This document shows, one piece after another, positions 52,734 to 64,000 of a stretch of DNA of 64,000 bases (position 1 is the stretch's first letter; each line of letters begins with the position of its first letter). The notes under the pieces are model-generated. The model was not told the origin of the DNA. It saw only the letters and a list, made by a program, of their open reading frames with translations, and did no database searches. The position numbers were made by a program, and so were the translations under genes. The DNA lies in the NCBI RefSeq assembly GCF_900167905.1, contig NZ_FUYZ01000002.1, forward strand, positions 248,001-312,000, given 5' to 3'. This DNA is from Soonwooa buanensis. Lineage in GTDB: Bacteria > Bacteroidota > Bacteroidia > Flavobacteriales > Weeksellaceae.

Positions 52734-53285
52734 CTATGGATTGTCAGCCGTTGCTTCTTGCGGTAGCGGTTCATCGTCTGGCGTTTGTGCCAGGGTTTTA
52801 TCCAAGTTGAAAAGTGACTCGTCGGTTGCTTTATCACCACCAGCGATTTTCAATTTGTCGATAAGTCCAAGTGCTAATTTTTCTTCTTCAATTTGTTCTT
52901 TTACAAACCATTGCATAAAATTCCAAGTGGCCCAATCTTTTTCTTCAAAGGCTAAATCTACCAATTTGTAGATTGCAGAGGTGTTGTCTACTTCGCTTTC
53001 AAAGACTTTATTAAAACAATCGGTAAGTGTTTTTGGATTAGCAGGTGGCGCTGCAATAGCTTCAACTTTAGGTTTTCCACCACGATCCAAAATATACCTC
53101 ATAAATTTTATCATATGATTGCGTTCTTCTTGCGAATGTCGGTATAAGAAATTCGCAATTCCAGCATAACCTTCCGTATCAGCCCAAACCCCAAGTGACA
53201 AAAATATCTGCGACGCATGCGCTTCCTTTGTCATCTGTTTGATAAGAGCTTCTTGCATTTTTTTTGATAATCTGTTGGTGTTCAT
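52734..53285 (-). CDS. Ferritin (non-heme, FtnA-like)
   Basis: 183 residues. Four-helix-bundle iron-storage protein that oxidises Fe(II) and stores it in a 24-subunit cage. Di-iron residues are visible in the first helix pair (MTKEAHASQIFLS and SQEERNHMIKF with the E..H ligand pair) and in the third/fourth helices (ESEVDNTSAIYKL, KEQIEEEKLALGL). An acidic/proline tail of about 20 residues follows the bundle. It is upstream of DUF493 and 22 bp after the DUF4197 gene in the same direction. Confidence 0.95.
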   Translation of the reverse strand: MNTNRLSKKMQEALIKQMTKEAHASQIFLSLGVWADTEGYAGIANFLYRHSQEERNHMIKFMRYILDRGGKPKVEAIAAPPANPKTLTDCFNKVFESEVDNTSAIYKLVDLAFEEKDWATWNFMQWFVKEQIEEEKLALGLIDKLKIAGGDKATDESLFNLDKTLAQTPDDEPLPQEATADNP

Positions 53286-53307
53286 AATAACTGTGTTTGG
53301 TTAATAT

Positions 53308-53982
53308 TTATTTTTTCAATGCATTGGTTAATACATCTGTGTTTTGTTTTTCATAATTTGTAATAAGTGCAAACATACCATTTACAAGTTGCTGAGAAGC
53401 CAAATTGCTCAACATACTTGCGCTAGTGCTGTTATTGTTTTGACCTAATAAACTTCCCAAAATATTGTTGCCTTTTAATGCTGTATTAATGGTTTTTACG
53501 ATTCCAAATTCATTTAATTTTTTATCAACTTCTGGCGCCAAAGCAGCAACCAATTGAGATTCTGTTTTTTCGCGAAGAATTTGCGATGCAATACCAGATC
53601 CACCTTGGGCAATTCTAGCAGCATCATCAGTCGTTAAGCTGTTAACACCATTTATTAAAATAGGTTCTGCAAATTTTGATGTAAAAGCCGCTGCTTCGGC
53701 GATGTATTCTTTTTCTTTGTTAACTAAATTCGAAAGGCCAAGACTTGTTAAAGTTGAATTGATACTTCGTAGTTGTGAGGGCATCGCTTGGTCAATTAAA
53801 CTATTCGACATAAAAGCTTCTTTGTTTTGAAATGTCGAAACGCCACTTGTAATACCGCCAATTAGTATTTTTTTAATAATTGAAAGTCCAATACTAGAGG
53901 TTGCTAAAGCGACACAAGAGTGGGATACTCCCGCTACTGCCACTGTTGCTATTGTTGCTGTGATTATAAATCTTGGTCTCAT
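53308..53982 (-). CDS. DUF4197-family protein
   Basis: 224 residues with an N-terminal hydrophobic signal (about 5-28; a Cys at 23 in SHSCVAL could be a lipoprotein site but the lipobox is poor). The body is helical and carries the family-like block AAAFTSKFAEPILINGVNSLTTDDAARIAQGG. Family of unknown function, generally exported. It is 22 bp upstream of ferritin on the same strand, so probably co-transcribed. Confidence 0.78.
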   Translation of the reverse strand: MRPRFIITATIATVAVAGVSHSCVALATSSIGLSIIKKILIGGITSGVSTFQNKEAFMSNSLIDQAMPSQLRSINSTLTSLGLSNLVNKEKEYIAEAAAFTSKFAEPILINGVNSLTTDDAARIAQGGSGIASQILREKTESQLVAALAPEVDKKLNEFGIVKTINTALKGNNILGSLLGQNNNSTSASMLSNLASQQLVNGMFALITNYEKQNTDVLTNALKK

Positions 53983-54084
53983 GTTCTATTTTAAATTTTG
54001 TTTGTTTTTAAGTTTCAAAAATTAAGCCATCTGTTTTTTTAACAATTGACTTTGCTAGCTTTTTTATAACTTTAAAAATAAAAT

Positions 54085-54927
54085 ATGTCCATCGAAATTA
54101 ACAGAAATATTGTCCTTACCAATCCCGAAACCAAATCATTTTTAGCCGACGCTTATTATAAAAAAAATGATAATAAATTGCCGTTGGTCATTTTAGTGCA
54201 TGGTTATAAAGGTTTTAAAGATTGGGGTGCTTGGCATTATCTTGCTGAAGCATTTGCTGAGGCAGGTTTTTATTTTGTGAAATTTAATTTTTCTCACAAC
54301 GGGACGACTTTGGATGATACTTCTAATTTTGCAGATTTGGAGGCTTTTGGTCATAATAACTATTCTAAAGAGATGAGCGATTTAACATTTGTAATCGATT
54401 ATTTTTCTAAATTACCAGAGGTTGATGCTTCCAAAATTGCTTTAATTGGTCATAGTCGTGGCAACGGAAATGTCATTATACAAGCTGCCGAAGATCATCG
54501 TATTAAAGCTTTGGTGGATTTTGCAGGGATTTCGGATTATGCATCGCGTTTTCCTCCAAAAGAAATGTTGCCCGAAATTAAAAAAGCTGGCGTTCTCTAT
54601 ATCGAGAATAAACGAACCAAACAACAGATGCCACATTATTTTCAGTTTTTTGAAGATTTTAAAGCCAATGAAGAACGTTTTACGATCGAGAATGCTGTTA
54701 AAAAATTATTGATTCCTTATTTAATAATTCATGGTTCGGCGGACGAAACGGTTAATTTACGAGAGGCAGAATTGCTTCATCAATGGGCAAAAAACTCGGA
54801 ATTATTGGTTATTGAAAACGGTGATCACGGTTTTGGAAGTTTTGAACCTTGGTCAGAAAAACAAATGCCAAAAGATTTAAAATTTGTTACCGAGAAAACC
54901 ATAGACTTTTTAAAAGAAAAATTGTAA
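54085..54927 (+). CDS. Alpha/beta hydrolase (S9/esterase-like)
   Basis: 280 residues, cytosolic, no signal peptide. Classic alpha/beta-hydrolase layout: oxyanion motif HGYKGFKDWG, nucleophile elbow GHSRGN (Ser about 128), catalytic Asp in HGSADETV and His in NGDHGF. A similar group of dienelactone-hydrolase-like or acyl-peptidase-like esterases exists; substrate unknown. It stands alone, divergent from the DUF4197-ferritin genes. Confidence 0.88.
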   Translation: MSIEINRNIVLTNPETKSFLADAYYKKNDNKLPLVILVHGYKGFKDWGAWHYLAEAFAEAGFYFVKFNFSHNGTTLDDTSNFADLEAFGHNNYSKEMSDLTFVIDYFSKLPEVDASKIALIGHSRGNGNVIIQAAEDHRIKALVDFAGISDYASRFPPKEMLPEIKKAGVLYIENKRTKQQMPHYFQFFEDFKANEERFTIENAVKKLLIPYLIIHGSADETVNLREAELLHQWAKNSELLVIENGDHGFGSFEPWSEKQMPKDLKFVTEKTIDFLKEKL

Positions 54928-55030
54928 ATATTTCATATGTCTATCGAAAATATAATTGTTGATAGATTTTGTCTTTTTGTTGTTTTCCCTTTTTGAATTA
55001 ATAAAAGTCTTATTGGTAGGCTATTTGCTT

Positions 55031-55038
55031 TAGTTTTG
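55031..55038 (+). promoter_or_regulatory. -7 element of the dps gene
   Basis: TAGTTTTG matches TAnnTTTG, 37 bp before the ATG. TTG at 55013-55015 is only 15 bp upstream, slightly short. Confidence 0.42.
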
Positions 55039-55074
55039 TCAAATAAAATTGAATTAATTTAAAAATAAAATAGT

Positions 55075-55542
55075 ATGAAAATTTCAATCGGATTAGATGC
55101 AAAACAAATTAAGGATAATGTAAAAGCGCTTTCTGTACTTTTAGCAGATGAACATATTCTTTATACGAAAACTCGAAATGCACATTGGAATGTTGAAGGA
55201 GCAGATTTTCACGCAATGCATGTCTTTTTTGAAAGTCAATATGACGAGCTCGAAGAGATTATCGATGAGGTTGCAGAACGTATTCGTCAGTTAGGACAAA
55301 TGGCGCCAGGAAGCCTAAAAGACTTTGTACAGTTAACAAGGTTGTCAGAGAGAAAACTTAGTAAAAATGACAGTCAGTCGTTCATCAAAGCTTTGTTAGA
55401 AGATCAAGAATCTGTGATATCTTACATTCGTGAAGTTGTTGCAAAAATGGATGATTCTAAAGATTTCGGTACAGAAGATTTCTTGGTAGGACTTCTCGAA
55501 AAACACGAAAAAATGGCTTGGATGCTAAGAGCGCATTTATAA
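55075..55542 (+). CDS. dps: Dps family DNA-protecting ferritin-like protein
   Basis: 155 residues, usual size. Dps forms 12-subunit cages that oxidise iron with hydrogen peroxide and can coat DNA under starvation. The inter-subunit ferroxidase ligands are visible in NAHWNVEGADFHAMHVFFE (His, His, Asp) and FFESQYDELEEIIDEVAERI. The Lys-rich N-terminal tail of DNA-binding Dps is short here. It is monocistronic between an alpha/beta hydrolase and the convergent amidoligase operon. Confidence 0.94.
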   Translation: MKISIGLDAKQIKDNVKALSVLLADEHILYTKTRNAHWNVEGADFHAMHVFFESQYDELEEIIDEVAERIRQLGQMAPGSLKDFVQLTRLSERKLSKNDSQSFIKALLEDQESVISYIREVVAKMDDSKDFGTEDFLVGLLEKHEKMAWMLRAHL

Positions 55543-55568: not shown

Positions 55569-55602
55569 AAAAAAACGCCGCATAAGTAATGTGGCGTTTT
55601 TT
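55569..55602. terminator. Bidirectional terminator dps / amidoligase operon
   Basis: AACGCCGCAT (55574-55583) pairs with ATGTGGCGTT (55589-55598, one G-T), with A and T runs on either side; lies between the two convergent stops. Confidence 0.88.
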
Positions 55603-55641
55603 GTTATCATTGAAAAAATTCAGTTGTAATTTAATGGAAAA

Positions 55642-56826
55642 TTATTTCACAAACAAGGCAAAAGAGCTTCCTGTCCACATTTGGTCGGCTTTATTAAAAT
55701 CAACATTCGCCATGTCGGACTTGGTCATTCTCACCAAATTATTAAGATAAGTTGGGAATTCGTCGCCAGGTTTCCAAATGAAAAGCATTCGGATTTCACC
55801 TTTTGCATAGTCGCCATTTGGATCACGGAAAACTTCCGCATACTCTACTTTTTTCTGTAAAATATATTGAGAAGGATCATCGAGTTGTGCTAAAGTCTCT
55901 TTAGTTGGATGTAAGTTAATACCACCACCAGCAAAGGAATATAAAGGTTTTAAGACATATTCTTCAATATTTTCATCACTCGGAAATTCGTTGGCGTAAT
56001 AGCTTTCTGGGATGTAAGTATGTTCCAAAAGAGGCAATACATATTTCGAAATTTTATAAAACCAATTTGGGTGTGTTACCCATTCTACATCGACATCTTC
56101 ACGAATATTAAACTCCGATTCAAAACCTTCGATTTTATCCAATTCGTCCAAGATAATACGGTTGTAGATACGTTTAATTCTAACTAATTCGCCATTATCG
56201 TTTTCATAAAAAATCTCGCGACCTCTTTTTTTAACCTTGCTAAGACAAACGGTTTTTATGTGTAAAAGATCTTCTGTGATTTTAAAATCAATTTTTGTTT
56301 TTTGACGTTCAGGATAGACTTCGAGAAGAATGACATTTTCTGGATTTTCGTCACCTACGATAACTTCCTTCATAATCTCGATAAGTTGATCGTACGGAAT
56401 ACGCTGCGATAACTCTGACAAAAATGGAAAAACTTCAAAAACAACATCTCGATGCAATTCTTCAAAAGCATAAAGAGATGGGAAAGCTTGTAACTCGATT
56501 AACTGAGGCATTGGCTTGCCATCGGCGCCACGACAAATACCAAAATCGATGCACAAAAAGTGCGGCTTGTCTGTATCATTTGGCACGAAACAGTTTGCTG
56601 GAATAGCTTTATCAAAAACCTCTTTTGGAATTTTATTAATTTGTTCCAAAATAGATTCGGCAGCGTACAATAATTTTTCTCTAAAAGAATAGGGCAGAAA
56701 AACTGGCGTTTCGCAAAGGCGAAAACCTGTGTATTGTCCAGTTTTTTCGTGTATCATCTCCTTCATCAACTCGTATTTTTCGTTGGTGAATTCTTGATTG
56801 AATTGATCTCTATATTTAGGTACCAT
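55642..56826 (-). CDS. ATP-grasp-like ligase, apparently circularly permuted
   Basis: 394 residues, no signal peptide. I see ATP-grasp-like motifs in swapped order: the metal-binding type segment comes first (Asp94 in CIDFGICRG, then QLIELQAFPS with Glu111 and Gln113), while the Gly-rich, Lys-containing nucleotide loop comes late (YVLKPLYSFAGGGI, Lys293), followed by GEIRMLFIW and LVRMTKSDMANVDF. Permuted ATP-grasp domains of this kind occur in glutathionylspermidine-synthase-like and related ligases. It is the last gene of an eight-gene operon of amide-forming and hydrolytic enzymes, 24 bp after the glutamine amidotransferase gene. The exact family is not recognised; ligase activity is inferred. 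Confidence 0.65.
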   Translation of the reverse strand: MVPKYRDQFNQEFTNEKYELMKEMIHEKTGQYTGFRLCETPVFLPYSFREKLLYAAESILEQINKIPKEVFDKAIPANCFVPNDTDKPHFLCIDFGICRGADGKPMPQLIELQAFPSLYAFEELHRDVVFEVFPFLSELSQRIPYDQLIEIMKEVIVGDENPENVILLEVYPERQKTKIDFKITEDLLHIKTVCLSKVKKRGREIFYENDNGELVRIKRIYNRIILDELDKIEGFESEFNIREDVDVEWVTHPNWFYKISKYVLPLLEHTYIPESYYANEFPSDENIEEYVLKPLYSFAGGGINLHPTKETLAQLDDPSQYILQKKVEYAEVFRDPNGDYAKGEIRMLFIWKPGDEFPTYLNNLVRMTKSDMANVDFNKADQMWTGSSFALFVK

Positions 56827-56850
56827 TTGTGTTTTGTTTTTAAAAGTTAA

Positions 56851-57690
56851 TTAATCCAAACTATGAGCTAGTGCTTGCAAAATTTTGTCTTGAGCCATTT
56901 TTAAGAAACTCGGCAAAATTTCTTTTTGTGTCAAAATAATTTTGTCTTCATCATCAATTCTATCCACGGTTTCCAAATATTTTTCCATACCGAAGTTGTT
57001 GATCATCGCTTGTTTGTTAGATTCATCTTTTAGATTTTCTAACATGCCTGCAGGATTAGCTTCTGGATGGAATTGAGTCCCGAAAATCTCATCCGAAAAA
57101 CGAATCGCCATCAATGCTCTTTCTAATTGGATATTCGGACGCATCTTTTCGATTGCGACAACCTTCATTCCCATTTCGTTTAACTTATCATCGTTTGGTT
57201 CGATGCATTGGTATGAGCGCGAATCCACGGCGTAGAAAGGTTCTGGCAGATTTTTAAATAAAACTTCTTGCTCGCCTTCCTCTGTTTTATGGATTGGCAT
57301 CACACCAAACGAGTAAGATTTTCTTTTACAAACATTCGCCAACTTCCAATTGATAACCGCTAATTGGAATGAGTGACAAATCAAAAACAAGTATTTTTTG
57401 TCTTCGTTATTTTTGTTGTAATCCCAAATTCCGTTTAAGAAATTAGCGTAAGGTGCTTCCCATGCAAAACCTTCTTTGTGGGGATTTCCGGGACCACCTG
57501 ACGAAATGAAAACATCAAAATCTTCAATATTTGGCATTTCGTTTTTATAACGAACATCGAAAACTTTGATGCTGATTTGCTCTGAGTTTGTATTTTTAAA
57601 ATTTTCAGAAATCTGAATAATATTCGCCAATCCTTGGTTGGGGAAATTGTTATTCATATCCAAAATTGCGATTCTAACTGCTTGATTCAT
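56851..57690 (-). CDS. Class I glutamine amidotransferase (GMP-synthase-like)
   Basis: 279 residues. Triad of the class I amidotransferases is present: nucleophile Cys105 in FLICHSFQLA (the usual form is CxGxQ, so Ser-Phe here is a variant), and His208/Glu210 in GTQFHPEANP; SSGGPGNPH supplies the oxyanion loop. It should release ammonia from glutamine, or hydrolyse a gamma-glutamyl bond, for a partner in the operon. No synthetase domain is fused. Flanked by the permuted ATP-grasp gene (24 bp) and the GCS2 ligase gene (69 bp). Confidence 0.88.
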   Translation of the reverse strand: MNQAVRIAILDMNNNFPNQGLANIIQISENFKNTNSEQISIKVFDVRYKNEMPNIEDFDVFISSGGPGNPHKEGFAWEAPYANFLNGIWDYNKNNEDKKYLFLICHSFQLAVINWKLANVCKRKSYSFGVMPIHKTEEGEQEVLFKNLPEPFYAVDSRSYQCIEPNDDKLNEMGMKVVAIEKMRPNIQLERALMAIRFSDEIFGTQFHPEANPAGMLENLKDESNKQAMINNFGMEKYLETVDRIDDEDKIILTQKEILPSFLKMAQDKILQALAHSLD

Positions 57691-57707
57691 ACTGCAAAAA
57701 ATTTATG

Positions 57708-57742
57708 CAAAGTTAAGCAAATATTAACAAATGGCTTTTCAA
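57708..57742 (-). promoter_or_regulatory. Possible internal promoter before the amidotransferase gene
   Basis: Minus strand: TTG (57742-57740), 24-bp spacer, TAACTTTG (57715-57708). It lies in the largest gap of the operon (69 bp). The spacer is one base above the usual range. Confidence 0.35.
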
Positions 57743-57759
57743 ACGTCTTTAAAGACTGG

Positions 57760-58863
57760 CTAAATGACATTTTTTTCGGTTTCGAAAATCATGTAATCAA
57801 CAACCGCTTTTAGGTCGCCGCCACTTTCATTAAAGACTTGTAGCTGTCGATCTGCGCCAGTTCCCATTTTTAAAATTTCTCGCGAATATTCAACTTCTTG
57901 ACGACAATCTAGCTCGTCCACCACATCGTCGATAAACAGTAAAAGTTCGTCCAATAAATCGGAATACGGAACACTGGTTTCTTTTCCAAAATCGATTAAG
58001 TTAGCGTGGATTCCATCTTTAGAAGCACGCCATTTATTTTCAGAAATCATCAATCTTCGATAAGATCGGAAGCTGATATTTTGTTGATGCATTTTGTAGA
58101 TTTTCGCCACCAAACATTGCATAATAGCTGCCATACAAACGGTTTCGTCAATCGTTAATGGCATGTCGCAAATCCTAAATTCTATCGTTGGATAGAATGG
58201 ATGGACACGCAGATCCCACCAGATTTTCTTAGCATTGTCTATCGTTCCTGTTTTAATCATCAAATTAACATAAGCATCAAACTCTGCAACACTACTGAAG
58301 TAACTCGGAATCCCGGTTCTCGGAAACTTTGCAAAAACTTCTTGACGATAAGATTTGAAACCGGTCAAACGACCAACCCAAAACGGCGAATTGGTAGACA
58401 AAGCGTAAACGTGAGGCAAAAAGTAACGCATCACATTTTGGATTCGGATGCCTTCTTCTCGATCAGGAATGCCGATGTGTACGTGTAATCCGAAAATAAG
58501 ATTAGAACGTGCAACATCGCCCATGTCGTTTACCAACTTGTCATAACGAGCATCTTTGGTGATGACATTATTCTTCCAATGCGAAAATGGATGTGTGCCA
58601 CCTCCCGAAACGCGAAGTCCTTGCTCATGCGCCACTTTTACAAGATGACGACGAAGATTGGTAAGCTCTTCTCTGGCTTCTTTAACGTTTTGACAAATGC
58701 CAGTTTCCATTTCGACAACGGATTCGTGCATCTCGTGTTTTAGGTTTTCGCTGAGAAGTGTTTTTCCGCCTTCAATGATCTTGGAAACATGTGAAACCAA
58801 ATCGCGTGTTTCGGCATCGATGATCTGGTATTCTTCTTCAACTCCTATCGTAAATCTGTGCAT
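57760..58863 (-). CDS. Carboxylate-amine ligase, GCS2/YbdK family
   Basis: 367 residues, standard length for YbdK-type enzymes. The N-terminal FTIGVEEEYQIID carries the metal-binding Glu residues of the GCS2 (glutamate-cysteine ligase 2) superfamily; LHVHIGIPDREEGIR and IEFRICDMP are further family blocks. These enzymes make an amide bond between a carboxylate, typically the gamma-carboxylate of glutamate, and an amine with ATP. In this operon it probably adds one building block; its own substrates are unknown. It starts 28 bp after the RimK-like gene. Confidence 0.9.
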   Translation of the reverse strand: MHRFTIGVEEEYQIIDAETRDLVSHVSKIIEGGKTLLSENLKHEMHESVVEMETGICQNVKEAREELTNLRRHLVKVAHEQGLRVSGGGTHPFSHWKNNVITKDARYDKLVNDMGDVARSNLIFGLHVHIGIPDREEGIRIQNVMRYFLPHVYALSTNSPFWVGRLTGFKSYRQEVFAKFPRTGIPSYFSSVAEFDAYVNLMIKTGTIDNAKKIWWDLRVHPFYPTIEFRICDMPLTIDETVCMAAIMQCLVAKIYKMHQQNISFRSYRRLMISENKWRASKDGIHANLIDFGKETSVPYSDLLDELLLFIDDVVDELDCRQEVEYSREILKMGTGADRQLQVFNESGGDLKAVVDYMIFETEKNVI

Positions 58864-58891
58864 AGTTTGTGTTTTTGATGTTAGAAAAGCT

Positions 58892-59848
58892 CTATTTTTT
58901 AACAGAATCTTTCACGAAATCGCCCCAAGAAATATTAGGTTTTCCAGAAACAAATTCTTTGGCTTTTTCGATGGCTAATTTCGCAGAATGTTCCACAATC
59001 CACTGGAAGTTATCTTCACCAACGGAGTTGCGATCGGCGTCTGGCGCAGGATTACAGAAATCGATTGCATAAGGAATTCCGTCTCTTACAGCGAATTCAA
59101 CTGTGTTAAAATCATATCCTAAAGCTTCATTAATTTTTAAAGTATAATCATGAATGGTTTTTAGAATTTTTTCTAATTGTTCGCCTTCGTATTTAGACTC
59201 GGTTACGTAACGCAAATGATGTGGATTACGTGGATCGTAAGGCATAATGTGAACATACTTTTTGCCCAAACAATAAACACGATAATAATCTTCGAAGACA
59301 ATTTCTTCTTGAACCATCATCACTAGTTGTTCAGTTTCTGACAATTTATTCCAAAGATCATCTGGATTTTCAACTCTGTAAACATTACGCCAACCGCCAC
59401 CATCATGAGGTTTCATATAAGCAGGGAAGCCAACATAGTTAAAAATATAATCCCAATCGTGCGGGAATTTTAAGTTTCTAAATGAAGTTTCTGACGTGTT
59501 AGTCGGTCTTTCGTGTGATGGAAGAAGAACTGTTTTCGGAACTGGAATTCCGATTTTTGTCATCAAGGCATTATTGAAAAACTTTTCGTCAGCGCTCCAC
59601 CAAAAAGGATTGTTGATGACATAAGTTCCATTAACAGCGGCATTCTTAAGATAAGCACGATAAAAAGGAACATCCTGAGAAATTCTGTCAATAATCACAG
59701 CATATTCGTAATCTGCACCTTGCTCTAGTTTGTCAATCATAACGGGTTCTGCGATAATTTCGCCGTTACCTAATTCGTTTACTTTATCTATAAATGCCCA
59801 TGGAAACGTGTCTTCCATACCAAATAATATTCCTACTTTCTTAGCCAT
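58892..59848 (-). CDS. ATP-grasp ligase (RimK-like)
   Basis: 318 residues. A pre-ATP-grasp domain (1-90: KVGILFGMEDTFPWAFI) precedes the ATP-grasp fold: nucleotide-binding Lys146 in AYMKPHDGGGW, and metal ligands Glu251 (TVEFAVRDG), Asp263 and Asn266 (YAIDFCNPAPD). The Asp where many family members have Glu is a conservative change. It should activate a carboxylate as acyl phosphate and join it to an amine. Located between the esterase gene (33 bp) and the GCS2 ligase gene (28 bp). Confidence 0.88.
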   Translation of the reverse strand: MAKKVGILFGMEDTFPWAFIDKVNELGNGEIIAEPVMIDKLEQGADYEYAVIIDRISQDVPFYRAYLKNAAVNGTYVINNPFWWSADEKFFNNALMTKIGIPVPKTVLLPSHERPTNTSETSFRNLKFPHDWDYIFNYVGFPAYMKPHDGGGWRNVYRVENPDDLWNKLSETEQLVMMVQEEIVFEDYYRVYCLGKKYVHIMPYDPRNPHHLRYVTESKYEGEQLEKILKTIHDYTLKINEALGYDFNTVEFAVRDGIPYAIDFCNPAPDADRNSVGEDNFQWIVEHSAKLAIEKAKEFVSGKPNISWGDFVKDSVKK

Positions 59849-59881
59849 AATTGTACTTTTTTTATGTGTTTTTAAAATGAT

Positions 59882-60592
59882 TTAATTAAAATAATTTGAG
59901 ATAAATTTTGGGAAAACCATGCGCCAAAGTGGCCAATCGTGGTTAATCCATTTGGCTTCGTCGTACCAAAAATTAATAGATTTTGTTGCTAAAATAGCCG
60001 CCATTTTTCGAGTCTTATCAAGACAAATATCTTGGTCAGAAGTACTTAATACTATGTGCATATGTCGATATTTCCAAGCTTCATCATTTGGCATAAATTC
60101 TTCTGGACAATTGAAATACACCAAATTATCTTGATAATTATCCATAAAACTTCTAATCGAAAAAGCGCCAGACAAACAAAATAAATGCGATACCAAATCT
60201 GGATATCTAAATGCAAAGTTAGAAGCATGATAACCACCAAAACTGCAACCAGCAACAGCTACACGATGTGTCTGATGTAATTTTTGGATCGAAGGCACAA
60301 ATTCTTGCACCAAAAACTGAATGTATCTTTCGTAGTTTCGGATGCGTTCTGCGGGTGATAAATGGTCCGCATAAAAAGTGTCTTTGTCAATGGTTTCGAC
60401 ATTGTATAACTTAACTTTTCCATCATCTATAAAACTGGAAATGCTTCCATTGAGATGAAAATCAGCATTCTGAGTGTAAGAACCTTGCGAGGTCGGAAAC
60501 ATAATGATAGGATATCCAAAATGTCCTGTAATTTCGATTTTTAAGTTTCTCCCCAAAATGTGAGAATAATATTCTGTATGTTCGATTTGCAT
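59882..60592 (-). CDS. Alpha/beta-hydrolase, putative esterase
   Basis: 236 residues from the ATG at 60590-60592. The frame is open to 60736, but that would overlap the upstream ligase by 134 bp; the chosen start leaves a 10-bp gap. Nucleophile Ser117 in VAGCSFGGYHA, Asp about 188 in STSDQDIC and His218 in WINHDW make the triad. It resembles esterase-D/Fes-like enzymes that hydrolyse esters or amides of peptide metabolites. Between two ATP-grasp genes, it may release or trim the pathway product. Confidence 0.86.
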   Translation of the reverse strand: MQIEHTEYYSHILGRNLKIEITGHFGYPIIMFPTSQGSYTQNADFHLNGSISSFIDDGKVKLYNVETIDKDTFYADHLSPAERIRNYERYIQFLVQEFVPSIQKLHQTHRVAVAGCSFGGYHASNFAFRYPDLVSHLFCLSGAFSIRSFMDNYQDNLVYFNCPEEFMPNDEAWKYRHMHIVLSTSDQDICLDKTRKMAAILATKSINFWYDEAKWINHDWPLWRMVFPKFISNYFN

Positions 60593-60602
60593 TTTTGTGA
60601 GT

Positions 60603-61811
60603 TTAAGAGGTTGGTTTTTCTGTAGGTGGTAAAATATTGAGGATGCTTTCTGCGATAATTTCTGAGGCGCAGTCGAGATCTTCAATAATTTGTTGTTCAG
60701 ATTCGGATTTAAAAACGATTCCGATGTGATTGTCAATGGATAAAAATTTGAAAATCTGTGGACATTTAAAAATCGAAGTGTCAGGATTTTTTTCCTTTGC
60801 TAAAGCAATTAAAAGTCCAGCAAAAAGATTGGATTTAATCTCTACTGAATAATCATTTTTGCGTAATAAAGCATCTTCCAATCTTGCCCATTCTCTCCAA
60901 ATATTAACACCAGTTGCGGCTTCTATCATATCCGGAATGTGCGCACCACCAACTCGTGATGAGGTTTCTAGGAAGTAAAATTGTCCATCATCGCCGAAGA
61001 TAAATTCGCTATGAGTTGCGCCGTTTTTAATTCCAAATTTTTCTAAAACTTGTTGGTTGATTTTTAAAAGTGCTTTTGTAAAATCCGAATTTTGATCCAA
61101 AGTCCTTGTTGCAAAAACTCCACCTTCGTGCGACACTTTCATCGGTGGTGATGTATATTGCGAACAACATGCAAAAACAATTTGATGTTTATAAACGAGA
61201 CAATCGACATGATAAACTTTCCCTGGTTTAAAACTTTCTAGGAGAAATTTGTAACGTTCTTCTTTTAGATTTTCGATGGCAGTCCATAGTTGCTCACGAT
61301 CTTTTATTTTTTTAATCCCACTTGCAGATGCTTCAGATCGAGGTTTCAAAACCCACGGACCTGGATGTTCTTCAATAAACTTGTTTAGTTTAGCATCATT
61401 AAATATCGATGAAAATTCAGGTACATTAATATCGTTATCCAAAGCTTGTTGACGCATCGCCAACTTGTCACGGAAATAACGATGTGTCGTCTGTCCCATG
61501 CCTGGGATTCTGTATGTTTCGCGAATCATTGCTGCTTTTTCGACATCGTAATCGTCCAAAGCAACAACTGCATCCACCTGATGAATTTTCATTAAATAAG
61601 AAAATCCTTGTACAAGATGTTCGAGATTCCAAGTTGAAGGTGCAATCTCCGACATATAATAGACTTCGTCGATCGCATGCCAAGGCCAGTCTTTGGTTTT
61701 TAAAGACTCAGAGGTAATCAAAATGACTTTGTTGCCAAGTTTTTTAGCTTCATCAATAAAGTCAAATCCTTTGTAGTAACAGGATATACAGACAATAGTT
61801 TTTTCCATCAT
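60603..61811 (-). CDS. ATP-grasp ligase (carbamoyl-phosphate-synthetase-like)
   Basis: 402 residues. Pre-ATP-grasp domain (1-110), then ATP-grasp with Lys156 in WVLKPRSEASASGI, a second nucleotide strand around residue 190-200, Glu269 (HSEFIFGDDGQ), Glu282 and Arg286 in FLETSSRVGGAHI. Where most relatives have ExNxR, here the Asn is Ser284. The sequence resembles amino-acid ligases (dipeptide-forming) more than carboxylases. A C-terminal 90-residue domain follows. It lies 16 bp after the M17 peptidase gene and 10 bp before the esterase gene. Confidence 0.88.
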   Translation of the reverse strand: MMEKTIVCISCYYKGFDFIDEAKKLGNKVILITSESLKTKDWPWHAIDEVYYMSEIAPSTWNLEHLVQGFSYLMKIHQVDAVVALDDYDVEKAAMIRETYRIPGMGQTTHRYFRDKLAMRQQALDNDINVPEFSSIFNDAKLNKFIEEHPGPWVLKPRSEASASGIKKIKDREQLWTAIENLKEERYKFLLESFKPGKVYHVDCLVYKHQIVFACCSQYTSPPMKVSHEGGVFATRTLDQNSDFTKALLKINQQVLEKFGIKNGATHSEFIFGDDGQFYFLETSSRVGGAHIPDMIEAATGVNIWREWARLEDALLRKNDYSVEIKSNLFAGLLIALAKEKNPDTSIFKCPQIFKFLSIDNHIGIVFKSESEQQIIEDLDCASEIIAESILNILPPTEKPTS

Positions 61812-61827
61812 ATTGTAATTTGTATCA

Positions 61828-63225
61828 TCAATTATAAGTTTTGAAAAGTTGTGCTAGCAAGTGTACGCCATAGCCAGTTGCCGCTTTATCTTTCGCATAT
61901 TCGACATTTCCGTAGGCGACACCAGCGATGTCAAGATGTGCCCACGATGGATGATCATTGATAAATTGTTCCAAAAATTTTGCAGCAACAATACAGTCGC
62001 CAACAGGTTTTAATGAAATGTTTTTAAAATCGGCAACATCCGAAGTTATTTCAGATTTCCAAACGTCCCAAAGTGGAAGATTCCAAATTCTATTTTGACT
62101 TTTTTCGCTTGAAGATTGTAGTTTTTGATTAAGTTGCTCGTCGTTACAAAAATAGGCGCCACAAGTGTTTCCGAACATTCGTACGCTGCTTCCTGTTAAA
62201 GTCGCAAGGTCAATAAGATGGTCCAATTTGTAATTTTTGGTGATGTAAGAAAGACCGTCGGCTAATGTTAATCGGCCTTCGGCATCGGTATCAATAATTT
62301 CGATGGTTTTTCCGTTGTAGGCTTTTACGACATCACTTGGTAAATAAGCTTTTTCCGAAACTGCATTATCCGTTATTGGTAAAACCGCAACGATATTAAT
62401 TGGAAGTTGCATTTCCGCAGCATAGATTAATGCGCCAATTACCGCTGAAGCGCCTCCCATATCGCTTTTCATGTAGTGAAGATTTGCAGAAGGTTTAATA
62501 GAAATTCCACCTGTATCAAACAATACGCATTTCCCAACAAGTCCAATCGTCGGAGCAGATTTTTTAGAACTTTGATATTCTAAAATCGTGAACGCCGCGT
62601 CCATCGCACTTCCCTGATTAACCGCTACAAAAGCACCCAAGCCTTTTTTAATCGATTCTTCGCGATTGTAAGCTTTGTATTTGAGTTTATATTTTTTTGA
62701 AATCTCTTTTAAAAATGAAGAAATATCATCAACCTTCTTTTGATTGGCGGGTTTGTTAAGCCAATCCATTCCAGCGAATTGTCCTACACAAAGGGCTTTC
62801 GCATCTTTTATAATGGCATTAATCGTTTTTTTGTCTTGTTTTGATGTCTCAATTTCAAAATCAGAACTCCAAAAAGGATGTTCATTTTTGAATGGATATT
62901 GATAAGTCCCTTGGAAAAGTCCAATGATAAAGGCTTCTAACTCGTCGTCTGTTAACTCATTTTTAATAACAAGTTTTTGCGCAAGAAGAGATTTTCGGTA
63001 TTTGTAAGAAAAACTTTTTCCGATGTCTAAAAGATTGGCAGTTGATATTTTCTTTCCAAAACCAATAAAATATTGAACGGAATTTTCCTCTGCACTCACG
63101 AAAAATTCTTTCTCTTCCGCAGAAAAAAATAGTTGAATATTTTTTGGAAAATCAGCTTTAGAAATTGACCAATCTTCGGTTGTATAAAGTTGTATTGTTT
63201 GTTGTATGCTATCTTTTTTAGCCAT
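61828..63225 (-). CDS. M17 leucyl-aminopeptidase-family enzyme
   Basis: 465 residues, cytosolic. An N-terminal domain of about 160 residues precedes the two-metal catalytic domain: Lys and Asp in VGKCVLFDTGGISIKPS, MKSDMGGASAV, and DTDAEGRLTLADGL (the canonical motif is NTDAEGRL; Asn to Asp here). It should cleave N-terminal residues from short peptides, perhaps processing or recycling the product of the neighbouring ligases. Its start overlaps the end of the upstream esterase gene by 8 bp. Confidence 0.93.
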   Translation of the reverse strand: MAKKDSIQQTIQLYTTEDWSISKADFPKNIQLFFSAEEKEFFVSAEENSVQYFIGFGKKISTANLLDIGKSFSYKYRKSLLAQKLVIKNELTDDELEAFIIGLFQGTYQYPFKNEHPFWSSDFEIETSKQDKKTINAIIKDAKALCVGQFAGMDWLNKPANQKKVDDISSFLKEISKKYKLKYKAYNREESIKKGLGAFVAVNQGSAMDAAFTILEYQSSKKSAPTIGLVGKCVLFDTGGISIKPSANLHYMKSDMGGASAVIGALIYAAEMQLPINIVAVLPITDNAVSEKAYLPSDVVKAYNGKTIEIIDTDAEGRLTLADGLSYITKNYKLDHLIDLATLTGSSVRMFGNTCGAYFCNDEQLNQKLQSSSEKSQNRIWNLPLWDVWKSEITSDVADFKNISLKPVGDCIVAAKFLEQFINDHPSWAHLDIAGVAYGNVEYAKDKAATGYGVHLLAQLFKTYN

Positions 63226-64000
63226 TTTTTTCAGTTGTAGAGGTTTGTTTTTTTATTGTAGTTGGATCTTCAAGCGTATCATAATACAGCCATTCTATCG
63301 CTCGTGGAAATTCTTGCGACCAATAGAATTCTTGATGTGTTCCTTCATCATTAATGCTTGTTTTAGTTTCAAAATTAAAATAATCTTGCAGTTCCCAAGT
63401 TTGTAAAGCGGTTTCGAATTTTTCTATTCTTTCAACCATTTGCGAACCTTCTTTTGCGCCGCCGTAGAGATAAACTTTGGTGTAAAAAGCTTTGCTAAAT
63501 TTCATCAACGGAAAATCATTATTCGGCTCTACCCAAAGCGATGGCGAAAAAATCATCAATTTGGAATAGACTTCAGGATAAAGAAATCCCGCATAGATGC
63601 TGATGAGTGCACCTAACGAACTTCCTCCAATACCTGTATTATCGCGATCTTTTTTGGTTCTATAATTTTTGTCAACAAATGGTTTAAGAGTATCCGTTAT
63701 AAATCTTAAATATTTTTTGCCTTCTGCACCTTCGGTAACTTCTTCGTTGTCAAAAATATATTCTTTTATTCTGTCATTATTACCGTGTTCTACGGCAATC
63801 ACGATGAGATTTCCTCGTCCGTATTCTGCTAACAAAGCTAGTTTTTTGTCGATTTCCCAATTTCCAAAAGCTGAACTTTCATTAAAAAGATTTTGTGCGT
63901 CTTGCAAGTACAAAACGGGATAATCTTGTTCGGTTTCGTGATAATTGTAGGGAAGAAGCGCCCAAACTTTGCGTGTTTTGTCCAATTGTGGACTGTAGAA
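63218..64000 (-). CDS. Alpha/beta-hydrolase, putative esterase (5' end outside window)
   Basis: The frame stays open to the window edge (FYSPQLDKTRKVWALLPYNY at the left of the protein), so the start is beyond base 64000; the TTG at 63985 is internal. About 261 residues are visible. Motifs of the IroE/Fes-type putative esterase group: VWALLPYNY, PVLYLQDAQNLF, nucleophile elbow GIGGSSLGALIS, later FSPSLW; the catalytic His is probably the one in EGTHQEFYW. It overlaps the M17 peptidase gene by 8 bp, so it belongs to the same operon and is the first member visible. Confidence 0.88.
   Translation of the reverse strand, partial: FYSPQLDKTRKVWALLPYNYHETEQDYPVLYLQDAQNLFNESSAFGNWEIDKKLALLAEYGRGNLIVIAVEHGNNDRIKEYIFDNEEVTEGAEGKKYLRFITDTLKPFVDKNYRTKKDRDNTGIGGSSLGALISIYAGFLYPEVYSKLMIFSPSLWVEPNNDFPLMKFSKAFYTKVYLYGGAKEGSQMVERIEKFETALQTWELQDYFNFETKTSINDEGTHQEFYWSQEFPRAIEWLYYDTLEDPTTIKKQTSTTEKNG

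Follow-up and report, generated by a model that had tools for sequence, protein, structure and literature searches.

In eukaryotes and plants, glutathione is synthesized by a GCS2-type glutamate-cysteine ligase (GCL) and a glutathione synthetase (GSS), and it is recycled by an M17 Cys-Gly dipeptidase and a gamma-glutamyl peptidase of the class I glutamine amidotransferase (GATase) type. The osmolyte operon for NAGGN is a stress operon which combines an ATP-grasp ligase, an amidotransferase and a peptidase. Amidoligase gene neighbourhoods, reportedly predicted through comparative genomics by Iyer et al. in 2009 (Mol BioSyst 5:1636, cited in PMC4431377), are already known as a class. The operon described here belongs to this class, as its conserved neighbourhood combines several stand-alone amide ligases with peptidases and contains no nonribosomal peptide synthetase (NRPS). 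It lies in a window of 64,000 nucleotides, the whole stretch of DNA analysed, from Soonwooa buanensis (NZ_FUYZ01000002.1:248001-312000), which belongs to the Weeksellaceae (the home family). The operon contains eight genes, g1 to g8, and on balance these probably encode cytosolic enzymes by which a short non-ribosomal amide is built up and recycled.

According to the open reading frame (ORF) list, the packing is as described in the first-pass annotation of this DNA (eight genes on the minus strand, gaps of 10-69 bp and one overlap): the ORFs run from window-equivalent position 64345 down to 55642, g1 and g2 overlap by 8 bp (63218-63225), and the intergenic gaps are 16 bp (g2/g3), 10 bp (g3/g4, taking the ATG at 60592 as the start of g4), 33 bp (g4/g5), 28 bp (g5/g6), 69 bp (g6/g7) and 24 bp (g7/g8). 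That annotation also had the operon continuing past the window, which holds for only 345 bp: they contain the rest of the head gene g1 (375 aa; L002:8218-9345, window-equivalent 63218-64345) and no further gene. Reading the contig onward, a divergent glgB followed by glgA-glgC was found beyond g1; therefore the operon has exactly eight genes, with g1 as its head divergent from glgBAC. Families were assigned by Pfam, NCBIfam and PDB sequence searches and, for g5 and g8, by AlphaFold models and Foldseek, as follows:

63218-64000 (full gene to 64345), minus strand: g1, cytosolic CE1-type esterase with a CBM48/AMPK-like N-terminal segment (VYITGNFNAWNP) and the Ser nucleophile in GxSxG (PF00756, PDB relatives).
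61828-63225, minus strand: g2, M17 leucyl aminopeptidase family (Pfam, 338 bits), with the metal-ligand motifs FDTGG, KSD and TDAEGR conserved.
60603-61811, minus strand: g3, ATP-grasp ligase of the L-amino-acid ligase (BacD/BL00235/DdaF-like) type (Pfam, NCBIfam, PDB).
59882-60592, minus strand: g4, small alpha/beta-hydrolase esterase with a GCSFGG nucleophile elbow and a conserved His.
58892-59848, minus strand: g5, Ddl/LysX/RimK-fold ATP-grasp ligase, used as marker of the system (AlphaFold model, Foldseek).
57760-58863, minus strand: g6, GCS2/YbdK-family carboxylate-amine ligase with the GhExE signature GVEEE (Pfam, NCBIfam).
56851-57690, minus strand: g7, class I GATase-like protein (PF00117) with a conserved Cys-His-Glu triad (ICHSFQ ... 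FHPEA).
55642-56826, minus strand: g8, ATP-grasp ligase with the glutathione synthetase / glutathionylspermidine synthase / YgiC fold (AlphaFold model, Foldseek).

These searches and folds agree with the families named beforehand (ATP-grasps, GCS2/YbdK, GATase, two alpha/beta-hydrolases and M17). The three ligases that had been called ATP-grasp-type are all ATP-grasps, but they are not generic or alike: g3 is L-amino-acid-ligase-like and its nearest solved structures are the L-amino acid ligases 4wd3 and 3vot, g5 is Ddl/LysX/RimK-like, and g8 shows the GSS/GspS fold. No Pfam model was matched at E<=0.01 by g5 or by g8, the model of the YgiC/GspS family included, and a sequence search of g8 against solved structures gave nothing better than E=0.095. 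The g5 model (mean pLDDT 90.5) has Ddl, LysX/ArgX and RimK as Foldseek neighbours, with moderate query-normalised TM-scores of 0.41-0.52. The g8 model (mean pLDDT 91.3) has the GspS-like 3n6x as a Foldseek neighbour, and its further neighbours include human and yeast glutathione synthetase, homoglutathione synthetase, YjfC, GspSA, trypanothione synthetase and Cp1B, with TM-scores that are also moderate (about 0.5-0.64, query-normalised). In addition, g8 has a weak local sequence match to YgiC over the motif around the P-loop, 'EDVDVEWVTHPNWF...VLKPLYS'. By its GVEEE motif and its scores over the NCBIfam cut-offs of PRK13515 (535.6 bits, cut-off 371) and TIGR02050 (310 bits, cut-off 176), g6 belongs to the YbdK carboxylate-amine ligase family, with 1tt4 and YbdK 1r8g as solved relatives, and none of the glutamate--cysteine ligase equivalog models is matched by it above its cut-off. 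Orthology of the ligases to housekeeping enzymes, which the first-pass annotation had named as a reason to drop its proposal, was not found: none reaches the NCBIfam cut-off of such an enzyme, and g6 passes only the generic 'carboxylate-amine ligase' one.

Among the hydrolase-type products, g1 matches the PF00756 esterase model with 95.9 bits and keeps GxSxG in all 27 g1 sequences compared. Its PDB relatives include 6mot/6mou, an isoamylase N-terminal domain protein, and the CBM48/AMPK-like segment was recognised from this relative and from the sequence of g1 itself, with no Pfam CBM48 match. The closest solved relatives of g1 are feruloyl-esterase-like proteins, and an assignment as S-formylglutathione hydrolase is not claimed. 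The catalytic motifs of g1, g2, g4, g6 and g7 are conserved across relatives, and g7 is a candidate gamma-glutamyl hydrolase or ammonia donor. As a separate observation, a Saprospiraceae contig has, next to g3/g2, a subtilase (PF00082; L165:7463-9067) whose C-terminal domain is of the CBM48/AMPK1_CBM type.

All eight genes stand in this order in about ten further genera of the home family, at identities of about 54-88%. These genera include Chryseobacterium, Elizabethkingia, Kaistella (in part lacking g1), Epilithonimonas, Halpernia and Cruoricaptor. In locus L020, g8 is missing. Because the full order recurs in so many genera, its conservation is far beyond chance, and the joint occurrence of the same eight families in other Bacteroidota, suggested as a check on the proposal, was found in full order there and as modules elsewhere. 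The most conserved of the eight is g5, with about 80-90% identity between genera of the home family; close orthologues (80-89%) were found in eleven other home-family genomes, and a genome from another family has one at 65%. In a contig scan, the best 80 of 583 relatives were all Bacteroidota by title.

Outside the home family the genes split in two modules. Module A contains the g1 esterase, the g2 M17 aminopeptidase and the L-amino-acid-ligase-like g3, and module B contains the g4 esterase, the Ddl/RimK-like g5, the GCS2/YbdK g6, the GATase-like g7 and the glutathione-synthetase-fold g8. The core from g4 to g8 is kept across Flavobacteriaceae, Cytophagales, Cyclobacteriaceae, Saprospiraceae and Mucilaginibacter, and a divergent PF00756 esterase usually adjoins g4. 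Of 71 loci that are not from the home family, 56 have g6 at <=9 kb from g5; g4 and g8 are each this close in 51, and g7 in 50. Module A is near module B, though not always complete, in six loci (L064, L156, L165, L170, L173 and L174); in others it is elsewhere in the genome (L218, L219, L222 and L224-L227). Two additions to the core were also observed. Cyclobacteriaceae-type loci L151, L153, L160, L167 and L169 have an extra S33-type alpha/beta hydrolase of about 310 aa, with an apparent signal peptide and an HGGPGNS motif, between g4 and g5, and in Cytophagales loci L130, L140 and L161 g8 is followed at once, on the same strand, by a class III aminotransferase-like gene of about 403 aa.

Co-occurrence was analysed in 395 Bacteroidota genomes, of which 134 contain g5, with g3 orthologues defined by E<=1e-40 and g8 called by profile. 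Orthologues of g3 are present in 80 of the 134 g5-positive genomes and in none of the 261 others (Fisher P about 1e-47), and g8 in 110 and four, respectively (P about 1e-67), both P values being inflated by relatedness. Nevertheless, co-occurrence of g5 with g3 and g8 is nearly absolute. Independent scattering of the genes in relatives, the outcome that would have spoken against one functional unit, was looked for and not seen: 110 of 114 genomes with g8 also have g5, as do all 80 with g3. One functional unit is thus supported.

Variant loci show replacements in this set. In L080, L089 and L096 the slot following g5 is occupied by a protein of 452-474 aa, and that of L080 matches PF14403, a circularly permuted ATP-grasp. 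In a search of 56 g5-positive genomes this ATP-grasp was found in 16 of the 24 lacking g8 and in none of the 32 having it (P about 2e-8), and by coordinates its gene adjoins g5. Furthermore, L085, L087 and L093 show an M29-type aminopeptidase between g6 and g8, the usual place of g7 (Pfam was run on the L087 protein). Such replacements are expected where selection acts on a reaction and not on one particular protein, and the mutually exclusive ligase replacement is a natural control for the step done by g8. The other g5-positive genomes without g8 mostly have divergent g5 copies (32-40% identity); genomes G065, G142, G215, G341, G410, G422 and G442 contain such g5-like ATP-grasps and neither g8 nor the circularly permuted one. 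In G215 (L098) the context is another one, with squalene/phytoene-synthase-like genes after the g5-like gene.

We favour a short cytosolic amide because four ligation-type enzymes stand together with an aminopeptidase, a GATase-like hydrolase and esterases, and the operon lacks an NRPS, a carrier protein, a precursor peptide and a transporter. The first-pass annotation had likewise seen no precursor peptide in the gaps (<=69 bp), no NRPS and no transporter, and none was found in the operon. A GCS2-like ligase beside a GATase-like thiol peptidase is a precedent for the g6/g7 pairing (PMC2588565), M17 enzymes with Cys-Gly dipeptidase activity are described in PMC7852106, and Cp1B, an ATP-grasp of the homoglutathione-synthetase type, makes a pseudodipeptide (PMC12568646). 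The first two, as precedents of gamma-glutamyl peptide recycling, match the GATase-like and M17 partners. The product that we favour is therefore an amide built from two to four parts, gamma-glutamyl or aminoacyl in kind and presumably a free small molecule. In the scheme that we infer, in its substrates, step order and physiology alike, g6 would couple an amine to a side-chain carboxylate that it activates, most likely the gamma-COOH of glutamate; g8, or the circularly permuted ATP-grasp in some lineages, would attach the second amine or amino acid; and the Ddl/RimK-like g5 and the L-amino-acid-ligase-like g3 would each add or supply another amino acid. In turn, g7 would strip gamma-glutamyl groups or give ammonia for an amide, g2 (in some relatives an M29 enzyme is present) would take off the N-terminal residue, and acyl or ester derivatives would be cleaved by the esterases g1 and g4. 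A gamma-glutamyl, glutathione-like version of this pathway is a tentative proposal. It is equally tentative that about a third of the sampled Bacteroidota make an undescribed intracellular gamma-glutamyl- or aminoacyl-amide, as a counterpart of glutathione or glutathionylspermidine, via the two modules and with g8 replaced by the circularly permuted ATP-grasp in some lineages.

Several points weigh against the short-amide pathway. The eight-gene operon contains no transporter, reductase or transferase gene, none of these orthologues has a known substrate, and the moderate TM-scores of g5 and g8 support their fold and reaction type and not a substrate. GCS2 was not found anywhere in genomes G092 and G119, which both have g5, g7 and g8; therefore gamma-glutamylation by g6 would be common, not obligatory. 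The four ligation-type steps that had been counted from the sequence thus correspond to four ligation-type enzymes in the window, but they are not universal. In addition, the host encodes BshC (bacillithiol), which makes a redox thiol less likely because a glutathione-like thiol would be redundant.

Alternatively, the operon could serve amine or peptide utilisation, where g6 gamma-glutamylates an imported amine transiently, g7 deglutamylates it, and the peptidases and esterases process the substrate, for which the PuuA/PuuD putrescine route is the model of transient gamma-glutamylation and removal. A carboxylate-amine ligase with a class I GATase-like hydrolase that keeps its Cys-His-Glu triad fits this route, and a related ligase/GATase-like peptidase pairing has been reported (PMC2588565). 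We consider it rather unlikely, however, as oxidase, dehydrogenase and uptake genes are in neither the operon nor the core module, three further ligases are hard to fit in a degradation route, and GCS2 can go while g5, g7 and g8 remain. An antibiotic-like secondary-metabolite cluster of stand-alone amide ligases, such as those of dapdiamide, bacilysin and E-64, would explain the resemblance of g3 to DdaF/BacD-type ligases and the fold that g8 shares with Cp1B of E-64 biosynthesis (PMC12568646). This is quite improbable: the operon has no transporter, resistance or regulatory gene and no plasmid copy, and a g5 with 80-90% identity between home-family genera that is found in about a third of the sampled Bacteroidota looks like core physiology and not a variable cluster.

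Tagging of a macromolecule, in which the RimK-like g5 and the other ligases put residues on a protein, lipid or glycan and the hydrolases take them off, is unlikely. By fold, g5 is kin to RimK and LysX/ArgX, whose targets are ribosomal or carrier proteins, and systems that tag by means of ATP-grasp and GS-fold ligases have been predicted in general; however, the operon has no conserved small carrier-protein gene, the characterised relatives of g3 and g8 named here act on small molecules, and short peptides are the typical substrates of M17 and M29 aminopeptidases. The CBM48/AMPK-like segment of g1 may bind glycan, but some module A loci (L064, L156, L218 and L227) have a g1 that lacks it. A role in cyanophycin or glycogen turnover would agree with the position of the operon between glgBAC and cphA-cphB-isoaspartyl peptidase in Chryseobacterium and Halpernia, and with glgBAC also flanking it in the window genome. 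Nevertheless, cphA is over the cut-off in only 22 of the 134 g5-positive genomes (Fisher P=0.046, uncorrected for relatedness), is on another contig in the window genome and flanks the operon only in Chryseobacterium-like genomes, while glg genes are near g5 in only three of the 71 loci outside the home family, to which the glgBAC adjacency is mostly confined. Both links were rejected as local, and such a role is highly improbable. The storage-gene island itself, as seen in Chryseobacterium, comprises a cphA-like gene (about 875 aa), a cyanophycinase-like S51 peptidase and an isoaspartyl peptidase at the 3' side, convergent with or just past the operon end, and glgBAC on the other side (L021, L022, L059, L060, L099, L101, L106, L107, L109, L110, L116 and L119).

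Other searches were negative. Plasmid mobility of the system was rejected, as none of 72,556 plasmids has a g5 match; plasmid GCS2 homologues are <40% identical, and two annotated records show other contexts. None of the eight proteins matched PADLOC anti-phage defence models, and no Rfam RNA element was matched in 53-64 kb of the window. A cluster for a ribosomally synthesized and post-translationally modified peptide (RiPP), of the graspetide type, was also rejected: the gaps in the window hold no precursor gene, and relatives show no conserved ORF of >=70 aa, shorter ORFs there not having been examined.

Downstream of g8, inspection of the window revealed one further feature:

~55570-55603, both directions: hairpin followed by T's (aacgccgcataagtaatgtggcgttttttt).

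This hairpin is a probable terminator common to g8 and the convergent Dps-like gene that is the 3' neighbour of g8 beyond it. At 52734-55542, on the 3' side of the operon, the window shows genes for a ferritin, a DUF4197 protein, an alpha/beta hydrolase and a Dps-like ferritin-fold protein, which suggests a stress/starvation neighbourhood.

Four ligases and four hydrolases that are conserved, widespread and tightly co-inherited point to a common metabolite unnamed by annotation in the libraries searched, and two of the ligases, g5 and g8, are outside Pfam models. The literature searched contained no description of this operon, a comparison with the neighbourhoods of Iyer et al. 2009 not being included. 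Many carriers are culturable (Chryseobacterium, Dyadobacter, Maribacter and Mucilaginibacter), so the question is directly testable.

Compared with described systems, the operon shares ligase, amidotransferase-type and aminopeptidase genes with the NAGGN operon, which however uses other families (an asparagine-synthetase-type GATase and an M42 peptidase) and whose ligase model is matched by g3 only weakly and locally. The amidoligase neighbourhoods of Iyer et al. 2009 reportedly also link ATP-grasp and GS-fold ligases to peptidases in conserved operons. NRPS-independent amide bonds are common to E-64 Cp1B and the stand-alone ATP-grasps of dapdiamide and bacilysin, which are relatives of g8 by fold and of g3 by sequence; those belong to secondary-metabolite clusters, whereas four ligases and four hydrolases are conserved here across Bacteroidota classes. 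With glutathionylspermidine synthase, YgiC and YjfC, which are peptide-polyamine ligases, g8 shares the predicted fold and the local YgiC motif, and it differs from them in lacking both the Pfam match and an amidase domain. In relation to glutathione synthesis of eukaryotes and plants, g6 and g8 are only distant kin of real GCL and GSS, the ligases g3 and g5 and two esterases are extra, GCS2 is dispensable in some lineages and the host has the bacillithiol gene bshC. However, a GCS2-family ligase, a GSS-fold ATP-grasp, an M17 aminopeptidase and a class I GATase-like protein are all found here in one operon, and the g6 and g8 pair would repeat the two-ligase logic of eukaryotic glutathione synthesis.

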